Shown: piece by piece, positions 1,622 through 58,227 of the stretch
Position numbering within the stretch: position 1 is the first letter of the stretch
How the letters are laid out: each line of letters begins with the position of its first letter
Source: Thermocoleostomius sinensis A174
GTDB lineage: Bacteria; Cyanobacteriota; Cyanobacteriia; Elainellales; Elainellaceae
Direction: 5' to 3'
Assembly: GCF_026802175.1 (NCBI RefSeq)
Contig: NZ_CP113797.1
Coordinates: 2,891,026 to 2,955,025 of the forward strand
Length of the DNA stretch: 64,000 bases
The notes under the pieces: model-generated
What the model saw: only the letters and a program-made list of their open reading frames with translations
Told to the model about the DNA's origin: nothing
Database searches by the model: none
Translations under genes and position numbers: made by a program

Positions 1622-2764
1622 TCACAAATCCATCAGCAATCTCTTGATTGTTTTACCAGCGACAGACCAATTCAAACGAGTGCGATACTCATTAAATGCA
1701 GATAGTGCTAATGCTTGATAGCGATCGTAGTCAGTAAATACAGCAGTAATATATTGACAGTATTCGGAAATATCTGCGGCTGGAGCAAACAATCGACCAT
1801 TAATATCGTTTTTGATGATGGTAGGCACTCCGCCAACGGCTGTCGCAACACAAGGCACTCCCATCGCATTTGCTTCACAAAACACAAGTCCATAACATTC
1901 GGCCCTTGTCGGAAGAATTAAAAAATGAGAGTCTGCTAGTAGGTGCGCAATTTTTTCTTTACCACCCTGAGTGGCTTTACTAATGAAGCCAAGTGGACGA
2001 ACAAAATCAGGATAGGAATCACCCGAGTCCGGCTCACAGCCCACAATTGTTAGCTCTGTTTTAAGCCCTGATGCATTGAGTAATTCTGCAACCTTTAAGG
2101 CAATATCTCCTCCTTTTCGGGCCCAATCAACGCCCAAAAAAATTAGCTTACAGACGTGATTCGATCGAGCCTTAATAATTTCCTGAACTTCGCTCAACGA
2201 TAAGCTATTTTCCAGATTTGCCCCAAACGGAACAACCTTCACCTTGTCTGGATCAGCATTATAGTGCTCAATGGCTGTTTGAGCCGCCCAATCTGATGCA
2301 AAAATCGCAAGGTTACTTTTTTGTAAGGCTAATTGTTCCATGCGATGCCAATCGCGAACAGTTTCTTGGCAAAGCTGGCTATAGTGTGGATAGGAGCGAT
2401 TTAAACCAGCAAAGGTGGCATCTGCATAAAAAACAATCGGTTTTTGAGATTCAAGATAGGCGATCGGATTACTAGTAACGCTAAAGACAATATCCGATCG
2501 AACTTTTGCTAACTTCTGAGAAACTTCTTGAGCATAATCCTTCAGAATGATAGGTTCTGGATCTCGTAAATACCGCTTACCTGATAGTTCATGATAGTGG
2601 CGCTTTATCTTTCGTACAACTTTGTGGCTCCATCGATCTTGAAGCGGCCCAATGTAATCCAGCAAAATAGATTGCTCACTCAGAGAGCGTGCAATGTAGT
2701 ACCCTGTTCCTGACCATTGGTGAACATCTTGAGCATTGTAGGTAGTGACGTAGGCGATTTTCAT
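1622..2764 (-). CDS. Family 4 glycosyltransferase (GT-B)
   Basis: A 380-residue GT-B glycosyltransferase. The start MKIAYVTTYNAQDVHQWSGTGYYIARSL is typical of GT4 acceptor domains. The C-terminal donor domain has LIFLGVDWARKGGDIAL and the signature stretch LPTRAECYGLVFCEANAMGVPCVAT, where the two glutamates of the E-X7-E motif are visible, followed by a GGVPTII loop. The length is normal for the family. It sits 41 bp upstream of the GT2 gene at 522-1580 in the same direction, which fits an operon for assembling an oligosaccharide repeat. It probably uses a nucleotide-sugar donor; which one cannot be told from sequence alone. Confidence 0.88.
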   Translation of the reverse strand: MKIAYVTTYNAQDVHQWSGTGYYIARSLSEQSILLDYIGPLQDRWSHKVVRKIKRHYHELSGKRYLRDPEPIILKDYAQEVSQKLAKVRSDIVFSVTSNPIAYLESQKPIVFYADATFAGLNRSYPHYSQLCQETVRDWHRMEQLALQKSNLAIFASDWAAQTAIEHYNADPDKVKVVPFGANLENSLSLSEVQEIIKARSNHVCKLIFLGVDWARKGGDIALKVAELLNASGLKTELTIVGCEPDSGDSYPDFVRPLGFISKATQGGKEKIAHLLADSHFLILPTRAECYGLVFCEANAMGVPCVATAVGGVPTIIKNDINGRLFAPAADISEYCQYITAVFTDYDRYQALALSAFNEYRTRLNWSVAGKTIKRLLMDL

Positions 2765-2841
2765 AATGTTTACTTGTTGGTAGTTGCAAGAAGTAAGTGC
2801 TTAATCACGACGCTAACGACTCCAGTTTCAACAGCAAATGC

Positions 2842-3888
2842 TCAAGTTTGTTTGAACGTATTGTCCAAACTTTTGAATTGAGAATAGGCTACTAAGCACA
2901 GAGCTTTGATAAACAACTTGACCGTTCTTAAATCAACATGCCAAGTAATTGCACGGGTTGCTAATTTCATTAATTCCGCGCTGTAGCTACGAAGATTTTT
3001 GCAATTGCCACGATAGTAAACTCGCGCATGGGTGGAATTAAAGTAGGAGAAGATCGGTTGTTTACCCTGTTGCTGCAACTTAGTATTCAAAAAATCATCA
3101 ACAGAATGCAGAAATTCACGTTTGACCGGTTTTTTATGCTGATACCACCAGTTATTATTGCCATGCACCCGATACTGTGCGAAGACTTCGTTTGACGAAT
3201 AAATATCTCCTAGCAAAGACGCCGCTTTGACTAAAAAGTCATCAGCACAAGTTTTAATTCCTTGGCAAGGCAAAGGAAAGATTTGGGCAGCAAGAGAACG
3301 GGTGAGCGCGAAACCGCTGGTTGGAGAGGCTAAATAAGGAATGTAGCGATACTTATTGGCGTGCTTCAACACTTCAGCCGCAGTGCTGATTTGCAGCAAT
3401 GCTCCATCCAGTACGGCTTTTCGCTCCTTAGTTGCATCTAAATCCTTCCACTCGCAGGAGCCACGCAATGGATCAACGGCTGGATCAACGTCCAAACGCT
3501 TCCCGGTGTTGCCAATAATTTCTAGTGAATGAAAAATTAGAACATCCGGATTGTACGATCGGATCTGATTGAATAACCCAACCATCTGTTCAACTTTATT
3601 GGGTAGAAAAACATCATCTGCGTCGAGGAAGAACAGTATCTCTCCGTGGCTGCATTCAAACGCAGCATTAAAGGCAGAGGCTTGCCCGCCGTTTTCTTTC
3701 AGAACCGGAATAATTCGATCGCCGTAGCTCAAAATGACATCCCGTGAATTGTCTGTCGAACCATCATCCACTACAATCACCTCAACGTGAGGATAGGTTT
3801 GATTCAACGCACTCTCAATCGCTTGTGTTAGAAATCGATCGTAGTTGTAGTTGTCAATGAGGATGCTGACGAGTGGCAAACTGTCCAT
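2842..3888 (-). CDS. Family 2 glycosyltransferase (GT-A)
   Basis: A GT-A glycosyltransferase of about 348 residues. The frame is open further upstream to 3957, but ATG 3888 is preferred: it has AGGGG seven bases before it, and the protein then begins MDSLPLVSILIDNYNYDRF, as expected for this family. Key motifs are EVIVVDDGSTDNS and FFLDADDVFLP. The first 100 residues are nearly collinear with the protein at 522-1580 (NYNYDRF, ALNQTY, SYGDRIIP), so the two look like duplicates that diverged in the acceptor half. It belongs to the minus-strand polysaccharide cluster, but a 296-bp structured intergenic region separates it from the next upstream gene. Confidence 0.87.
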   Translation of the reverse strand: MDSLPLVSILIDNYNYDRFLTQAIESALNQTYPHVEVIVVDDGSTDNSRDVILSYGDRIIPVLKENGGQASAFNAAFECSHGEILFFLDADDVFLPNKVEQMVGLFNQIRSYNPDVLIFHSLEIIGNTGKRLDVDPAVDPLRGSCEWKDLDATKERKAVLDGALLQISTAAEVLKHANKYRYIPYLASPTSGFALTRSLAAQIFPLPCQGIKTCADDFLVKAASLLGDIYSSNEVFAQYRVHGNNNWWYQHKKPVKREFLHSVDDFLNTKLQQQGKQPIFSYFNSTHARVYYRGNCKNLRSYSAELMKLATRAITWHVDLRTVKLFIKALCLVAYSQFKSLDNTFKQT

Positions 3889-51114: not shown

Positions 51115-54100
51115 ATGAGATTAATTCAGGAGTCATCTGCTCATTCATTAACCCAAACCCAGGTCAACGAGCGCCTGATTCCACCCTGGGTCGTTCAGGG
51201 ACTGCGATGGTTCAACTTACGCCCCGAAGAAGGCAAACGCACCTTTCTCATGTTTGCTTTTTACACACTCAGTTCTGTTGGCATTCTGTGGCTGGAAGTG
51301 AGTATTGCCGCTCTTTTTCTGAATGAGTATGGGGCTGAGTGGCTTCCTTGGGTTTATATTGCCAGTGCGGCAATTGGCACCGGATTGGGCATTGGGTACG
51401 CTTGGCTGCAAAAGGTGTTACCCCTGCACCGCGTTCTAGTTTGCACCGCAGGGTTGATGGCGCTGCCCTTGTTGCTGTTTCGCTTGGGGTTGCATCCAGC
51501 CCTGATGGGAAGCTACACCGTTTTTCTAATGCGGCTTTGGCTAGAGGCGATTTATGTCATCAGTGAATTGAATACATCGATCGCCGCCAATCAGTTATTC
51601 ACCATTCGCGAAATTAAGCGCACTTATCCCTTAATTAGTAGCGGGATTTTAGTCGCGGATGTGCTGAGCGGGTTATCGCTGCCGCTCTTACGCGGATTAG
51701 TGGGTTTATCTAATGTTATTTTGCTAGCTTCGTTGATGCTGTTTCTGGGCGCGGGGGTGTTGCTCTATCTCACAAAAGCCTATCGCCCATTTTTTCCAGA
51801 TTCCCGCTATCGCTCTTCCAATCGGGAACAGCGCTTCACCCGCCACCGATTGCGCAAACCGCAACGACAGTATGTGATGTTCGTCTTTGCATTTTTTGTG
51901 CTGGTGCAAGTGCTGGCGCTTCTGCTGGATTTTCAATACCTTGGTCAACTGCAACAGAGCATGAGTTTGGAAACGATCGCCGACTTCCTAGCCTTATTCA
52001 GCGCAATTTTGGGTAGCTTTGAACTAGTTATGCAGTGGTTCATTTCTGGGCGCTTAATTGAACGGTTAGGGATATTTACAGGAATCGCGGTGTCCCCGGT
52101 TCTCCTGCTTGGACTCGGTTTGTTGACTTTCGGCGGCGTCATCAGTTTGCTGGTCGGTGTGATTCTGCTGAAATTTGTTGATGAACTGCTGCGCTATACC
52201 CTAGTGGCCAGCACCGGGCCACTTTTGTTTCAACCCATCCCCGAAGCCAACCGCAACCGAATACAATCTGTCGTGCGTGGCATTGCTGAACCTGTGTCAA
52301 CCGGGGCGATCGGTGTAGGGTTGGTGCTCACCCTGGGATTTTTGCAGCTATCCCATCCAATCGCACAAACTCTAAGCAAGGCAGCAGGCTTTGTGTTCCT
52401 AGCCTATACGGTTCTGTTTTCGCTGCTGTGGCTATTGACGGTGATACATTTAAGAGCCAAATATCTGGTGGTGCTCGTGTCTAGCAGCGATCGGGGGCAA
52501 CTCAGTCGTTTCAACGTTGATTTGCCTACCCTCAAACGCAATTTGATAGAAGCATTGCAACGAGCAACTACGGATGAAGAGCGCTCGTCTTGTATTAAGT
52601 TGCTCACCGATGTTGACCCAACTCAAGCAAATGCTGTTTTGGCGCCCCTACTGTCCAGCTTCTCACCAGCATTGCAACGGCAGAGTTTGGTAGCCATGCT
52701 TCACTTTCCCAACCCTGTTTATTTGAGCCATGTACAAGCGTTGGTCACTCAGCCAACACCACAGCCTATATCACCCGAGGTACTAGCGCTGGCGCTGCGC
52801 TATAGGTGGTTGAGCGATCAGGCAGACGTGGCACAATCAGAGGTGGCACAACTGAAGCCCTACCTTCGTGCCGATGTGGAACCCGTGGTGCGGAGTACAG
52901 CGGCGGCTCTGATGCTACGGCACGGTAATTCGGTTCAGAAAGCTGAAGCCACAACGGTGTTACGACGCATGTTGACCAGCAAGCAAGAACAGAACCGGAT
53001 CATGGGCTGCCAAGCTCTGGGAGATGCGGTCTATCTACAGTCTCTACGGCTGTACATTAAACCAATGCTGCAAGATCCGTCCTTGCCTGTGCGCTGTGCC
53101 ATGCTGGAAGCGATCGCTGCTACGCACTTGGAAGAATATTATCCTGCCCTGTTGCGAGGGTTGTCCTACCCATCTACCCGGGAAGCTGCCCAACGATCGC
53201 TGGTTCGATTGGGAGATGAGGTACTTCCACGCCTAGTAGCGTTTGCCGAACATCCTCACACACCCTCTGGGGTTCGTATCTATGCCTGGAACACGGTTGG
53301 GCAGATAGCCACTCCCAAGGCGATCGATTACTTAATCGATCGGCTGACGTCCACTAACGGCACAACGCAGCGAACGGTGCTACGGGTGTTGCTGCGCATT
53401 CCACACGAAGCTGGCGTTGAGGCAGTCTTGACGCAACTAGGACGGCGTGGCATTGAGCATTTAATTCTTCAGCAAATTCAGTGGTTGGCGCACGTCTATG
53501 CAGGGTTAGTTGATTTGCAACCTCTGCAACTTCAACAATTTGCAATGGTAGAAGCCGAATTGCTTTGGCGAGCCTTGCGTGATGCAGAAACCGATGCGGT
53601 TGAGCAAATTTTCTTGCTTATGCGCTTTCTGTATGATGCCAACCAAATTCAGGCGGCGGCGTTTAACCTTCAATCCAAAACGCGAGACAGTATGGCGCGA
53701 GGGCTAGAGATTTTAGACAATACTATCGATCTATCCAGTAAGACAATCATTCTTACTATTTTCGATCGGTTATCTGATCATGAGAAGCTGCAACACCTTG
53801 CCCCTCTAATCAACTATCGATCGCTGAAGCCCAGTCAACGACTACATCATTTGCTAGAATTACGCCATTTTTTATCAGATTGGACGCTAGCATGTTGTTT
53901 TCATTTGGCCCGTCAGACAGGTTGGACATTGACATCTGAACAAATTTTGTTTGGGTTGTGCGCTGCTAGTGGCTTTGTTCGGGAAGCCGCATTAGCTTAT
54001 TTGCAAGTGGTGTTCCCAACCCGGCTACGATCCGTGTTGCCGCTGTTCAAAACCGATCCCGATCGCCTTGTGGCGCTGCAAGTCCGGCAGATGATGGCAG

Positions 54101-54126
54101 AATTGAGAAACCCCGTTCATCAATAG
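51115..54126 (+). CDS. MFS-like membrane protein fused to HEAT repeats
   Basis: A 1003-residue protein. Residues about 40-445 are membrane-embedded, with roughly 12 helices in an MFS or ATP/ADP-translocase-like arrangement (FLMFAFYTLSSVGILWLEVSIAALFL, then two six-helix halves separated by the basic loop YRSSNREQRFTRHRLRKPQRQY near 240). Residues about 470-1000 are soluble and built of HEAT-type helical repeats (LLSSFSPALQRQSLVAMLHFP; MLQDPSLPVRCAMLEAIAATHL; GVRIYAWNTVGQIATPKAIDYLIDRL). It is followed after 42 bp by a cyclic-nucleotide-binding protein, which in related bacterial proteins may be fused on. ATG 51115 is used. The transported substrate, if any, is unknown; a nucleotide or signalling role is speculative. 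Confidence 0.75.
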   Translation: MRLIQESSAHSLTQTQVNERLIPPWVVQGLRWFNLRPEEGKRTFLMFAFYTLSSVGILWLEVSIAALFLNEYGAEWLPWVYIASAAIGTGLGIGYAWLQKVLPLHRVLVCTAGLMALPLLLFRLGLHPALMGSYTVFLMRLWLEAIYVISELNTSIAANQLFTIREIKRTYPLISSGILVADVLSGLSLPLLRGLVGLSNVILLASLMLFLGAGVLLYLTKAYRPFFPDSRYRSSNREQRFTRHRLRKPQRQYVMFVFAFFVLVQVLALLLDFQYLGQLQQSMSLETIADFLALFSAILGSFELVMQWFISGRLIERLGIFTGIAVSPVLLLGLGLLTFGGVISLLVGVILLKFVDELLRYTLVASTGPLLFQPIPEANRNRIQSVVRGIAEPVSTGAIGVGLVLTLGFLQLSHPIAQTLSKAAGFVFLAYTVLFSLLWLLTVIHLRAKYLVVLVSSSDRGQLSRFNVDLPTLKRNLIEALQRATTDEERSSCIKLLTDVDPTQANAVLAPLLSSFSPALQRQSLVAMLHFPNPVYLSHVQALVTQPTPQPISPEVLALALRYRWLSDQADVAQSEVAQLKPYLRADVEPVVRSTAAALMLRHGNSVQKAEATTVLRRMLTSKQEQNRIMGCQALGDAVYLQSLRLYIKPMLQDPSLPVRCAMLEAIAATHLEEYYPALLRGLSYPSTREAAQRSLVRLGDEVLPRLVAFAEHPHTPSGVRIYAWNTVGQIATPKAIDYLIDRLTSTNGTTQRTVLRVLLRIPHEAGVEAVLTQLGRRGIEHLILQQIQWLAHVYAGLVDLQPLQLQQFAMVEAELLWRALRDAETDAVEQIFLLMRFLYDANQIQAAAFNLQSKTRDSMARGLEILDNTIDLSSKTIILTIFDRLSDHEKLQHLAPLINYRSLKPSQRLHHLLELRHFLSDWTLACCFHLARQTGWTLTSEQILFGLCAASGFVREAALAYLQVVFPTRLRSVLPLFKTDPDRLVALQVRQMMAELRNPVHQ

Positions 54127-54168
54127 TTCAGTCTTTTTTAGTTGCAAGTGTTCTAATCACCTTGTCCC

Positions 54169-54603
54169 ATGCTCACCGTCGATCGCCTGCTGTTTGTTCG
54201 GAACGTACCTATTTTTCAAGAACTGCGTGATGATTTTCTCGTGCGACTGGCTGCCATTATGGAAGAATTGCATTTTCCAGCGAAACACACAATCTTTACT
54301 CAAGGCGAAGAAGGTCGATCGCTTTATATTCTCGTTTCGGGACGGGTGCGGGTCTTGAGTGGCACTCGAGAACTGGCACAACTGGCTCAAGGAACTTGCT
54401 TCGGTGAAATGGCAGTTCTAGACGCCGAACCTCGTTCTGCTTCTGTTATCACCCTGGCACCGTGTCAATGCTTAATGCTGACCCAACAGCAATTGTACGA
54501 GGCGATCGAAGAAACCCCTGGCGTGGCGGTGAATGTGATTCGGTTGCTGTCCCGCCGGATTCGGGAACTGAATCAACGCCTCGATCGGTTGCAGGAGGGG
54601 TAG
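54169..54603 (+). CDS. Cyclic-nucleotide-binding domain protein without effector domain
   Basis: A 144-residue protein consisting of just a cNMP-binding (CAP_ED) domain. Start MLTVDRLLFVRNVPIFQELRDDFLVRLAAIMEE; the beta-barrel includes HTIFTQGEEGRSLYILVSGRVRVLSG, and the phosphate-binding cassette is FGEMAVLDAEPRSASVI with the key Glu and Arg present, so ligand binding is plausible. A C-terminal helix (VAVNVIRLLSRRIRELNQRLDRLQEG) could mediate dimers or contact a partner. There is no DNA-binding helix-turn-helix. It lies 42 bp after the MFS-HEAT gene on the same strand and is probably its regulatory partner. Confidence 0.85.
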   Translation: MLTVDRLLFVRNVPIFQELRDDFLVRLAAIMEELHFPAKHTIFTQGEEGRSLYILVSGRVRVLSGTRELAQLAQGTCFGEMAVLDAEPRSASVITLAPCQCLMLTQQQLYEAIEETPGVAVNVIRLLSRRIRELNQRLDRLQEG

Positions 54604-55394: not shown

Positions 55395-56174
55395 AACAAC
55401 CCGCCGTGTATTCAGTTACTTCAATATTGGCATTGATAATGAGCCGTTTCACGCAGCCAGCCGAGATATCCTCAGGCAATAGGGGTTGGGGAATGAGGGC
55501 GAGACTTGCAAACGTGACACGGTCCCTGCTCTTGTTAACGTTACTAACGTGCTTACGAGGGTTCTTTATTGTTAATCGGAAATGGTCAATCGGATTAGCC
55601 ATTAACCATAGTTCTAGCAAGGAACGATCGTTTTCTTTTTAAGTACGGTACTTATGTCTTCGCGGCGATCGAATCCCTAGCAAAATGCTTAAGTGTTTGT
55701 CCGATTCCATATAGTTATAACCCTAACAATTCACAAAAATCTCTAACAATTTGTTACTTCCTTAAAGCTTTTAAGTTTTAGTTGAATTTCTTTAGAACAA
55801 ATGTCTTCCGCTATACGTAGAGTTTTAGTGACCAATAATTCAAATTTCTTTCTACCTGTAGCGTACTGGTTAAACAGGAACACTTTATCTATTAGGAAAA
55901 CGACTGTATATAGTACATAAATACTATTTTCTTGAAAATTTAATTATGCTAATTATTAATGTAGAGAGGAAAATCCACTTTGAATCTCTTCATTTGAATT
56001 TGATGGGATTCTAAGGAAGTTATCACACCCTTGAATTTACTGCCGTGCCAAGCGTTGCTTGGCATGGTTCACTCCTAGGGAATTGTGAAAACTTGAGGCT
56101 GTAGTCATCAATAATATGAGATTACGCCCATTGAGATAAGCTAATCTAACCCGATTTTGGAGGGCAATGAATCC
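55395..56174. other. Long A+T-rich leader region upstream of a surface protein
   Basis: 780 bp with no supportable gene. The left part (about 55400-55560) contains a degraded GGGGTTGGGG repeat fragment. From 55640 onward the DNA is strongly A+T-rich. A hairpin at 56043-56067 lies 108 bp upstream of the surface-protein ATG. GGAGGG at 56159-56164 is that gene's ribosome binding site, ten bases before the ATG. Confidence 0.5.
56043..56067 (+). promoter_or_regulatory. Hairpin in the presumed leader of the surface-protein gene
   Basis: CCGTGCCAAGC, GTT loop, GCTTGGCATGG: eleven pairs including one G-U, a very stable stem. No U-tract follows. It could be an RNA stability or translational control element, or an operator. 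Confidence 0.45.
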
Positions 56175-56795
56175 ATGGAAACACTCGCGTTTCTCCATCT
56201 CGCTGAAGAAAACGAAAATTCTCAAGTTCGGGAATTGACGTTAGATACAAACAAGTTTGCTGGCAAGGCGGCGATCGGTGCATTGGGAATTGCGGCCGCG
56301 GCGGTGGGTGCTTTTGGTATCGCAGACAGTGCTTCAGCTTATGGCTATGGCGGTTGCTATAGCTATGACTGTGGCTATAACTACTACTCGTATGATCCTT
56401 GCTATGACTACGGGTGTGACAAGTACTACTCGTATGATCCTTGCTATGACTACGGGTGTGACAAGTACTACTCGTATGATCCTTGCTACTACGATTCCTG
56501 CGGTAGCAGCCACTACTACTCGTATGATCCTTGCTATGACTACGGGTGTGACAAGTACTACTCGTATGATCCTTGCTACTACGATTCCTGCGGTAGCTAC
56601 TATTCTCCAAAAATTCACTTGTCAGTGAAAGAAATTCAGATCGCTCTGAAGAATGCAGGGTGCCATGTTTACGTAGATGGTGTGTTTGGCCCGATGACAG
56701 CCCATGCTGTTAAATCATTCCAAGCTGCCCATGGTCTGCATGTAGATGGCGTTGTGGGACCGCAAACCACAGCAGCGCTACTTCAGTATCTTTAG
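56175..56795 (+). CDS. Tyr/Asp/Cys-repeat protein with peptidoglycan-binding domain
   Basis: A 206-residue protein. ATG 56175, with GGAGGG ten bases upstream, is preferred over TTG 56157. The N-terminus METLAFLHLAEENENSQVRELTLDTNKF is followed by an Ala/Gly-rich hydrophobic run (AAIGALGIAAAAVGAFGIADSASA), probably an export signal or anchor. Residues about 60-143 are repeats: YYSYDPCYDYGCDK three times and YYSYDPCYYDSCGS twice. The C-terminal 60 residues are a PG_binding_1 domain (LSVKEIQIALKNAGCHVYVDGVFGPMTAHAVKSFQAAHGLHVDGVVGPQTTAALLQYL). The likely place is the cell wall or surface; the Tyr/Cys repeats could cross-link or bind metal. Role unknown. Confidence 0.8.
   Translation: METLAFLHLAEENENSQVRELTLDTNKFAGKAAIGALGIAAAAVGAFGIADSASAYGYGGCYSYDCGYNYYSYDPCYDYGCDKYYSYDPCYDYGCDKYYSYDPCYYDSCGSSHYYSYDPCYDYGCDKYYSYDPCYYDSCGSYYSPKIHLSVKEIQIALKNAGCHVYVDGVFGPMTAHAVKSFQAAHGLHVDGVVGPQTTAALLQYL
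56424..56603. repeat. 90-bp tandem duplication inside the repeat protein gene
   Basis: 56424-56513 is repeated at 56514-56597 with the first 84 bases identical at the DNA level. Each 90-bp unit is itself a pair of 42/48-bp units that begin TACTACTCGTATGATCC; five such starts occur at 56382, 56424, 56466, 56514 and 56556. Silent-site identity implies recent expansion or gene conversion. The whole repeat keeps the reading frame. Confidence 0.85.
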
Positions 56796-57090: not shown

Positions 57091-58227
57091 TTATGCGGGA
57101 TGGTAGTAGAATGCTACGCCCAGTAAAATATAGGTCGCTAGTAGCAACGTTCCATCAAGCCAATTGCTGCGTCCACCAAAACTAACTAAATTGGTGACTA
57201 AAACAGCGATCGCCATCGCTGCCACTTCAAACGGATTGAAATTCAGGTCGATCGGTTGACCAATGATGTGTCCTACGAATAACAGCACTGGGGCCACAAA
57301 CAACGCCACCAGCAAACTATCGCCCGTTACTACCGACACAACCAAGTCCATTTTGTCTTTGAGGGCTAGTCGGACAATGGTGACATAGCCTGCTACATCG
57401 CTGATCAGTGGCACCAAAATCACGCCTGTAAATAAGGAAGTTAGCCCCAGGCGTTTGGTTTCAGGTTCTACTACCCCAACAAATAATTCCGATTCAATGG
57501 CAACGGCGATCGCGGAGCTAAGCAAGACCACCAGCCACATTATTAAACTCGATCGAACCTTGGATGTTTGCTCTGCTTTGGCGGGTTGGTCTTCGTCAGT
57601 GTCCAGCAGGCCCATGTCATAAAGATAGCTGTGAGTTTTTAGGGAGAATAGCAGTGTTAAGCCGTAGACCACAATTAGCACCGTGGCTGTAGCAATAGAA
57701 AGATTGTGGATAGCGGTTCTGTCTACTACTCTAGAGGTAGAAATAACTAAGGTGGGCAGGGCGATCGCAATCACCGCTAATGTAATGGTGGCTCCATTCA
57801 CGCGGATTAAAATCGGTTGAAATTCTTGTTCCTTATAGCGCAACCCTCCTGTTAGCATTCCCAGCCCCAACAGCAGTAATAGACTACTGAGAATACTGCC
57901 CGTGATGCTGGCTTTCACGATTTCAACTAACCCTGCATTCAGCGCCACCAACGCAATAATGAGTGCTGTTGCATTAGCAAAAACCGCATTAACAATTCCG
58001 CCGATGGCGGGCCCCGTCACAAGAGCTACCTTCTCTGTTGCAGTTCCTAACAATATAGAGAGCGGCACAATGGCCAGAACGGAAGTGAAAAACACGATCG
58101 ATTGACCCCAATGCAACAAACTGGCGGCGATCGAGATGGGTACAAAGATCAGCAGCAGTAGGGGCAGAACTTGTCCAACCGAAAGTTTGCGTTTAACTAA
58201 TAGGGAGAACTGGCGATCGGATTTCAT
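57091..58227 (-). CDS. CAX-family (Ca2+/H+ antiporter) homologue lacking both signature glutamates
   Basis: A 378-residue protein with about eleven helices, clearly related to bacterial CAX Ca2+/H+ antiporters: LLGTATEKVALVTGPAIGGIVNAVFANATALIIALVALNAGLVEIVKAS in the first half, and LFTGVILVPLISDVAGYVTIVRLALKDKMDL plus LNFNPFEVAAMAIAVLVTN...SNWLDGTLLLATYILLGVAFYYHP in the second. The c-1 motif that should read GNATE is ANATA (residues 84-88), and the c-2 motif GNAAEH is SDVAGY (276-281), so both conserved ion-binding acids are gone. GSS-x-Q is GDSLL. The frame is otherwise intact, so this is not an obvious pseudogene. It may carry another ion or act as a sensor. It converges with nothing close; larE is 98 bp upstream on the same strand. 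Confidence 0.85.
   Translation of the reverse strand: MKSDRQFSLLVKRKLSVGQVLPLLLLIFVPISIAASLLHWGQSIVFFTSVLAIVPLSILLGTATEKVALVTGPAIGGIVNAVFANATALIIALVALNAGLVEIVKASITGSILSSLLLLLGLGMLTGGLRYKEQEFQPILIRVNGATITLAVIAIALPTLVISTSRVVDRTAIHNLSIATATVLIVVYGLTLLFSLKTHSYLYDMGLLDTDEDQPAKAEQTSKVRSSLIMWLVVLLSSAIAVAIESELFVGVVEPETKRLGLTSLFTGVILVPLISDVAGYVTIVRLALKDKMDLVVSVVTGDSLLVALFVAPVLLFVGHIIGQPIDLNFNPFEVAAMAIAVLVTNLVSFGGRSNWLDGTLLLATYILLGVAFYYHPA

Follow-up and report, generated by a model that had tools for sequence, protein, structure and literature searches.

A cyanobacterial CAX-fold protein whose ion site looks to have been redesigned rather than lost

In CAX exchangers, the glutamate pair of the alpha-repeats is regarded as indispensable for exchange. 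The CAX protein YfkE is a trimer. Substitution E255Q in YfkE abolishes both Ca2+ binding and transport; E72Q also abolishes transport, and the mutant protein still binds Ca2+, threefold more tightly (PMC10227063). Each glutamate is thus essential for transport by YfkE, and a canonical CAX that had lost both would therefore be dead. YfkE also co-transports phosphate. Residues N252 and S278 are modelled contacts of this phosphate, and N252, H256 and Q281 are residues that matter for it (PMC10227063). In NCX_Mj, S210 is a ligand of the Sext site and S236 a ligand of the Sint site (PMC5133943); on our own reading of the motif alignment, these serines correspond to YfkE N252 and S278. The mitochondrial H+/Ca2+ transporter NCLX has a two-aspartate pocket (D153 and D471) in the same CaCA fold. 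Here, S468 contributes to holding the hydration shell of Ca2+, and changing this residue to lysine is critical for transport (PMC12571890).

We analysed a window of 64,000 nucleotides from the genome of Thermocoleostomius sinensis A174 (NZ_CP113797.1, positions 2,891,026 to 2,955,025). Positions 57091 to 58227 of the window, on the minus strand, contain an ORF with an ATG start that encodes a CAX-fold protein of 378 amino acids. All features of this gene given below are on the same strand. The original prediction described the protein as collinear with bacterial CAX antiporters, and this was borne out. Thus, the NCBIfam profile TIGR00378 (‘cax’) matched residues 25–374 to model positions 1–349 of 349, with a score of 365.9 bits against a cut-off of 211.15. 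Among solved structures, the sequence matched VCX1, YfkE and Arabidopsis CAX1. An AlphaFold2 model made from the single sequence was poor (pLDDT 45.6) and we used an alignment-based model instead (pLDDT 83.5, pTM 0.83). In this model, the helices are interrupted where the TM2 and TM7 signatures lie. It superposes on YfkE with a Z score of 43.2 (rmsd 1.5 Å over 317 residues), on VCX1 with a Z score of 44.6 (3.1 Å over 352 residues) and on NCX_Mj, which has the same superfamily fold, with a Z score of 19.6 (4.4 Å). The likeness to YfkE, VCX1 and Arabidopsis CAX1 includes full-length homology, a fold of 10–11 transmembrane helices, the alpha-repeats, the M2 and M7 kinks and the conserved C-terminal block.

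The pocket is different. Residues were mapped by HMMER alignment of the protein to YfkE and VCX1. In TM2, the alpha1 motif, canonically GNATE, reads ANATA (residues 84–88, positions 57964 to 57978, codons GCT AAT GCA ACA GCA). Here, N85 retains YfkE N69 and A88 replaces E72. In TM7, the alpha2 motif, canonically GNAAEH, reads SDVAGY (residues 276–281, positions 57385 to 57402, codons AGC GAT GTA GCA GGC TAT). Hence, N252 is replaced by D277 (positions 57397 to 57399), E255 by G280 and H256 by Y281. The TM3 motif, canonically GSIIGN or GSIISN, is GSILSS (positions 57883 to 57900) and has S115 in place of N99. Finally, the TM8 motif, canonically GSSLQ, is GDSLL (positions 57310 to 57324); D303 (codon 57319–57321) replaces S278 and L306 replaces Q281. 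Both signature glutamates are absent, so two acids have gone from the pocket, and two acids are new. The changes at TM8 and TM3 had been overlooked in the original prediction. Its statement that ANATA and SDVAGY are real codons was confirmed when the DNA was re-read; the frame is intact at both motifs and the alpha2 change is common to a clade of relatives. A sequencing or frame error was ruled out, since the motif is common to independent genomes.

The gained aspartates are at the positions of the NCX_Mj ligands S210 and S236. However, NCX_Mj keeps E54, E213 and D240, whereas our protein has no acid at any of the three. The two-aspartate pocket of NCLX is a further likeness. NCLX has S468 at the position of D277, but its aspartates are at the canonical glutamate positions, one per repeat. 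Conversely, our protein carries both of its acids in the second repeat, and neither is at a canonical glutamate position. We know of no measured CaCA transporter with acids at these positions. The protein is a CAX-family member by profile and fold, and is not a canonical CAX by its defining residues. We grouped proteins having aspartate at the N252 and S278 positions, and having lost E255, as class C (relocated carboxylate). The present protein has this combination. Going by these residues, we refer to it as a CAX-related protein of class C and refrain from assigning it Ca2+/H+ exchange.

We gathered relatives from the contigs of 84,980 genomes, from 60 relatives and from a phylum-wide set of 386 genomes, and read each pocket. 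Class was always assigned from the residues because classes B and C cannot be told apart by profile score. Class A is canonical (GNATE, GSIIGN, GNAAEH, GSSLQ). Class B has GNATE, GTIISN, GGAAEY and GSSLL. A fourth group, C0, has GNATE, GSILGD, GDIAGY or GDVSGY, and GSSLL. The class C pocket is xNATx, GSIL followed by any residue and then D, A or S, SDVAGY and its variants, and GDSLL. Class B, which is widespread in cyanobacteria and frequently forms a tandem pair with a canonical CAX, keeps both glutamates and has lost N252, H256 and Q281. It is the subfamily closest to our protein. The class B protein encoded next to a canonical CAX in the same genome (L002) is 63% identical to the query and shares with it the tyrosine at the H256 position and the leucine at the Q281 position. 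The difference is that L002 retains the glutamates and has G at N252 and S at S278, where our protein has D at both.

We left the motif columns out when building the tree. Class C, represented by 33 sampled sequences, was monophyletic (support 100/98). Together, C and C0 formed a single clade (100/98), and C, C0 and B grouped apart from class A (100/99). The C plus C0 clade arises within or adjoining class B. The order of change on the tree is from A to B, then to C0 and then to C, and the surviving alpha2 motifs form the series GNAAEH, GGAAEY, GDIAGY and SDVAGY.

A search for orthologues had been proposed, and cyanobacterial relatives do share the query motifs. Of the 36 genomes in the family to which the window belongs, half have C (14 genomes, including the L186 variant described below) or C0 (4 genomes). 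In the set of 386 genomes, C or C0 occurs in at least 12, some of which are also counted in the family. All reliable matches were cyanobacterial. Two cyanobacterial CAX genes (L035 and L097) were found in metagenome-assembled genomes labelled Gracilibacteria and Tatlockia; these are probably mis-binned contigs. The ANATA motif itself was traced only to other genera, the sample containing no sister strain of the same genus. A search of plasmids for copies recovered only distant rhizobial and other CAX sequences, at less than 60% identity. In several genomes of the window's family we also saw a recurrent class A variant with GNAAE at alpha1 and GNAAEN at alpha2, mostly with GASMQ (L156, L165, L168, L183 and L187; H256 to N and S278 to A). 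We weighed whether C0 covaries with this unusual GNAAEN copy of class A and set the idea aside, since GNAAEN is also present in two genomes (G012 and G021) in which we found no C0.

Within the clade, the second repeat is fixed and the first is not. The aspartate at position 277 is invariant in all 37 C and C0 sequences (33/33 and 4/4, respectively) and the aspartate at 303 in all 33 class C sequences. Glycine occupies the former E255 position in 37/37. A later-found outlier (L186) has SDVATA, with T at the E255 position, and keeps both aspartates. Conversely, at the E72 position 12 of the 33 class C sequences have E, 9 have T, 8 have A and 4 have V. At least five changes at this position are needed on the tree, and our protein is among those that have lost the glutamate. 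Residues at the N99 position are D (17 sequences), A (15) and S (one). All four combinations of kept or lost E72 with kept or lost D99 are found in class C. The query and six other sampled clade members have an acid at neither the TM2 nor the TM3 position. Hence, the first-repeat acids are apparently dispensable in class C and the second-repeat pair is not. In these alignments, the alpha2 glutamate is missing throughout the clade; the alpha1 glutamate has been lost repeatedly, and its loss does not characterize the family. The original claim that both acidic motifs are lost is therefore correct for the query, and extends clade-wide only to alpha2. The accompanying idea, of a pocket stripped of its ion-binding acids, does not hold; it missed D277 and D303, which are fixed in that same pocket. 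Seven columns are fixed in class C and unlike both A and B. Four of these (276, 277, 280 and 303) are in the pocket, an enrichment with a rough hypergeometric P of 4e-5 that is indicative, the pocket set and thresholds having been chosen by us.

Loss of the pocket glutamates, in a genome with redundant CAX copies, might be taken to mean that a spare copy is losing its function after duplication. We consider this highly improbable, and simple decay was rejected on the following measurements. With one codon model, ω was 0.065 for class C, 0.059 for class B and 0.072 for class A; these values describe clades rather than the query branch alone, and synonymous sites are saturated. Median ω for close pairs was 0.056, 0.066 and 0.057 for C, B and A, respectively. 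Between the query and a close relative (L004), differences at codon positions 1, 2 and 3 were 0.29, 0.14 and 0.59, and so were concentrated at third positions. Of 105 near-invariant columns, the query breaks only 5, mostly by conservative changes, which is normal for a clade where other class C members break 0–9. The reading frame is intact and the new residues are fixed across the clade. Purifying selection on class C is as strong as in true CAX proteins, in agreement with the earlier view that the fold is kept by selection. Orthologues with both motifs intact, alongside a relaxed query, would have been expected of decay; no clade member keeps GNAAEH, and the measurements above show no relaxation of the query. 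Taken together, class C looks like a natural redesign of a transporter ion site rather than a decayed gene.

A rebuilt ion site is the most likely explanation because class C is kept by selection and because two new acids are fixed at adjacent ligand positions. We regard as evenly poised the proposal that class C is a working secondary cation transporter with an ion site rebuilt around D277 and D303. Somewhat more tentatively, the site may have moved; the glutamate clamp would have been dismantled stepwise and an aspartate pair in the second repeat used instead, giving a new specificity or coupling. By alignment, this pair appears to sit where relatives hold phosphate or Na+. The order of steps comes from the tree, and their functional meaning is our interpretation. 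Class B has replaced N252, H256 and Q281 and kept the glutamates, so the first step may have been a loss of phosphate handling. The E255-type glutamate of TM7 would then have given way to D277, one helical turn earlier, and to D303 on TM8. Together, D277 and D303 would make up a new cation site inside the second alpha-repeat, in place of phosphate, and would be protonated and deprotonated instead of the glutamates. The TM2 glutamate would become optional. The expected activity would be cation/H+ exchange with altered cation preference, stoichiometry or phosphate dependence, operating beside ordinary CAX copies. By default, the substrate would be guessed to be Ca2+ or some other divalent metal.

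Besides the loss of transport in the YfkE mutants and the want of a measured CaCA precedent known to us, two observations count against a transporter. First, with an acid at neither TM2 nor TM3, the query and the six similar clade members lack the pseudo-symmetric two-acid clamp of CaCA proteins. Second, a CAX that retains the two glutamates is also present in nearly all class C genomes, and loss of transport would therefore be tolerable. The query genome has a tandem pair of class A and class B genes, 2.7 Mb from the query gene. Among about 25 genomes with C or C0 that we examined, all but two had another copy bearing both glutamates (judged from identity alone in G003), and the two exceptions are incomplete assemblies (88% and 69% complete). 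In one genome (G027) the other copy, L164 of class B, is split into frames of 291 and 88 amino acids, by a frameshift or an assembly error.

Such company would suit a non-transporting partner. Class C proteins would join oligomers with class A or B exchangers and tune their activity, much like a pseudo-enzyme subunit. The absence from the query of both canonical glutamates, each essential for transport by YfkE, points the same way. Oligomers have precedent, since NCLX was resolved as a trimer (PMC12571890). In Arabidopsis, a transport-deficient CAX1 module signals. Even so, we think a partner role rather unlikely. No conserved gene neighbourhood of class C, and no linkage to class A or B genes, was found in the 16 loci examined. 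A partner should be near-universal, yet many genomes with A or B have no C. Furthermore, two strictly invariant new acids in the pocket would go unexplained if the protein were purely a scaffold.

Those acids could also serve a binding-only sensor, or transceptor, in which binding of a cation or proton in the pocket is reported without transport. The E72Q form of YfkE, which binds Ca2+ and does not transport it, makes a binding-only state possible (PMC10227063), and the class C pocket retains acids. However, a profile search for an extra signalling domain in the 378 amino acids found none, and there is no conserved regulatory neighbour. We consider a sensor improbable. The original prediction had offered a new specificity, a regulatory subunit or a sensor. 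Because the new aspartates are fixed, a rebuilt ion site is favoured from this set, and a sensor or scaffold free of ions is disfavoured.

No riboswitch or other RNA was found near the query gene. Published work on a family with these motifs would have made it a known one; no description of the class C motifs was found in the open-licence papers searched, which is weak evidence of novelty. In class C, one glutamate has been dropped entirely and the other repeatedly, and two new acids have been fixed. This amounts to a natural experiment on how an antiporter site and its coupling may be rebuilt. If the ion site has indeed moved, each step is still represented by a living intermediate in cyanobacteria. 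There is also a warning for annotation; curated models call class C genes calcium/proton exchangers, though the catalytic residues are absent.

A separate loss of the alpha2 glutamate, independent and more divergent, was seen in L143 (positions 2073–3263, genome G042). This gene is the middle member of a three-gene CAX array and has SNLPE, GNVGAL and NAASQ; the two flanking copies keep the alpha2 glutamate. Elsewhere in the window, positions 51115 to 54603 of the plus strand encode a protein of 1003 amino acids whose N-terminal part is hydrophobic and resembles a transporter, and which also has HEAT repeats. A protein of 144 amino acids with a cyclic-nucleotide-binding domain is encoded 3′ of this gene. 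Positions 56157 to 56795, also on the plus strand, encode a protein of 212 amino acids that has tandem repeats rich in Tyr, Asp and Cys (YYSYDPCYDYGCDK) and a C-terminal peptidoglycan-binding domain.
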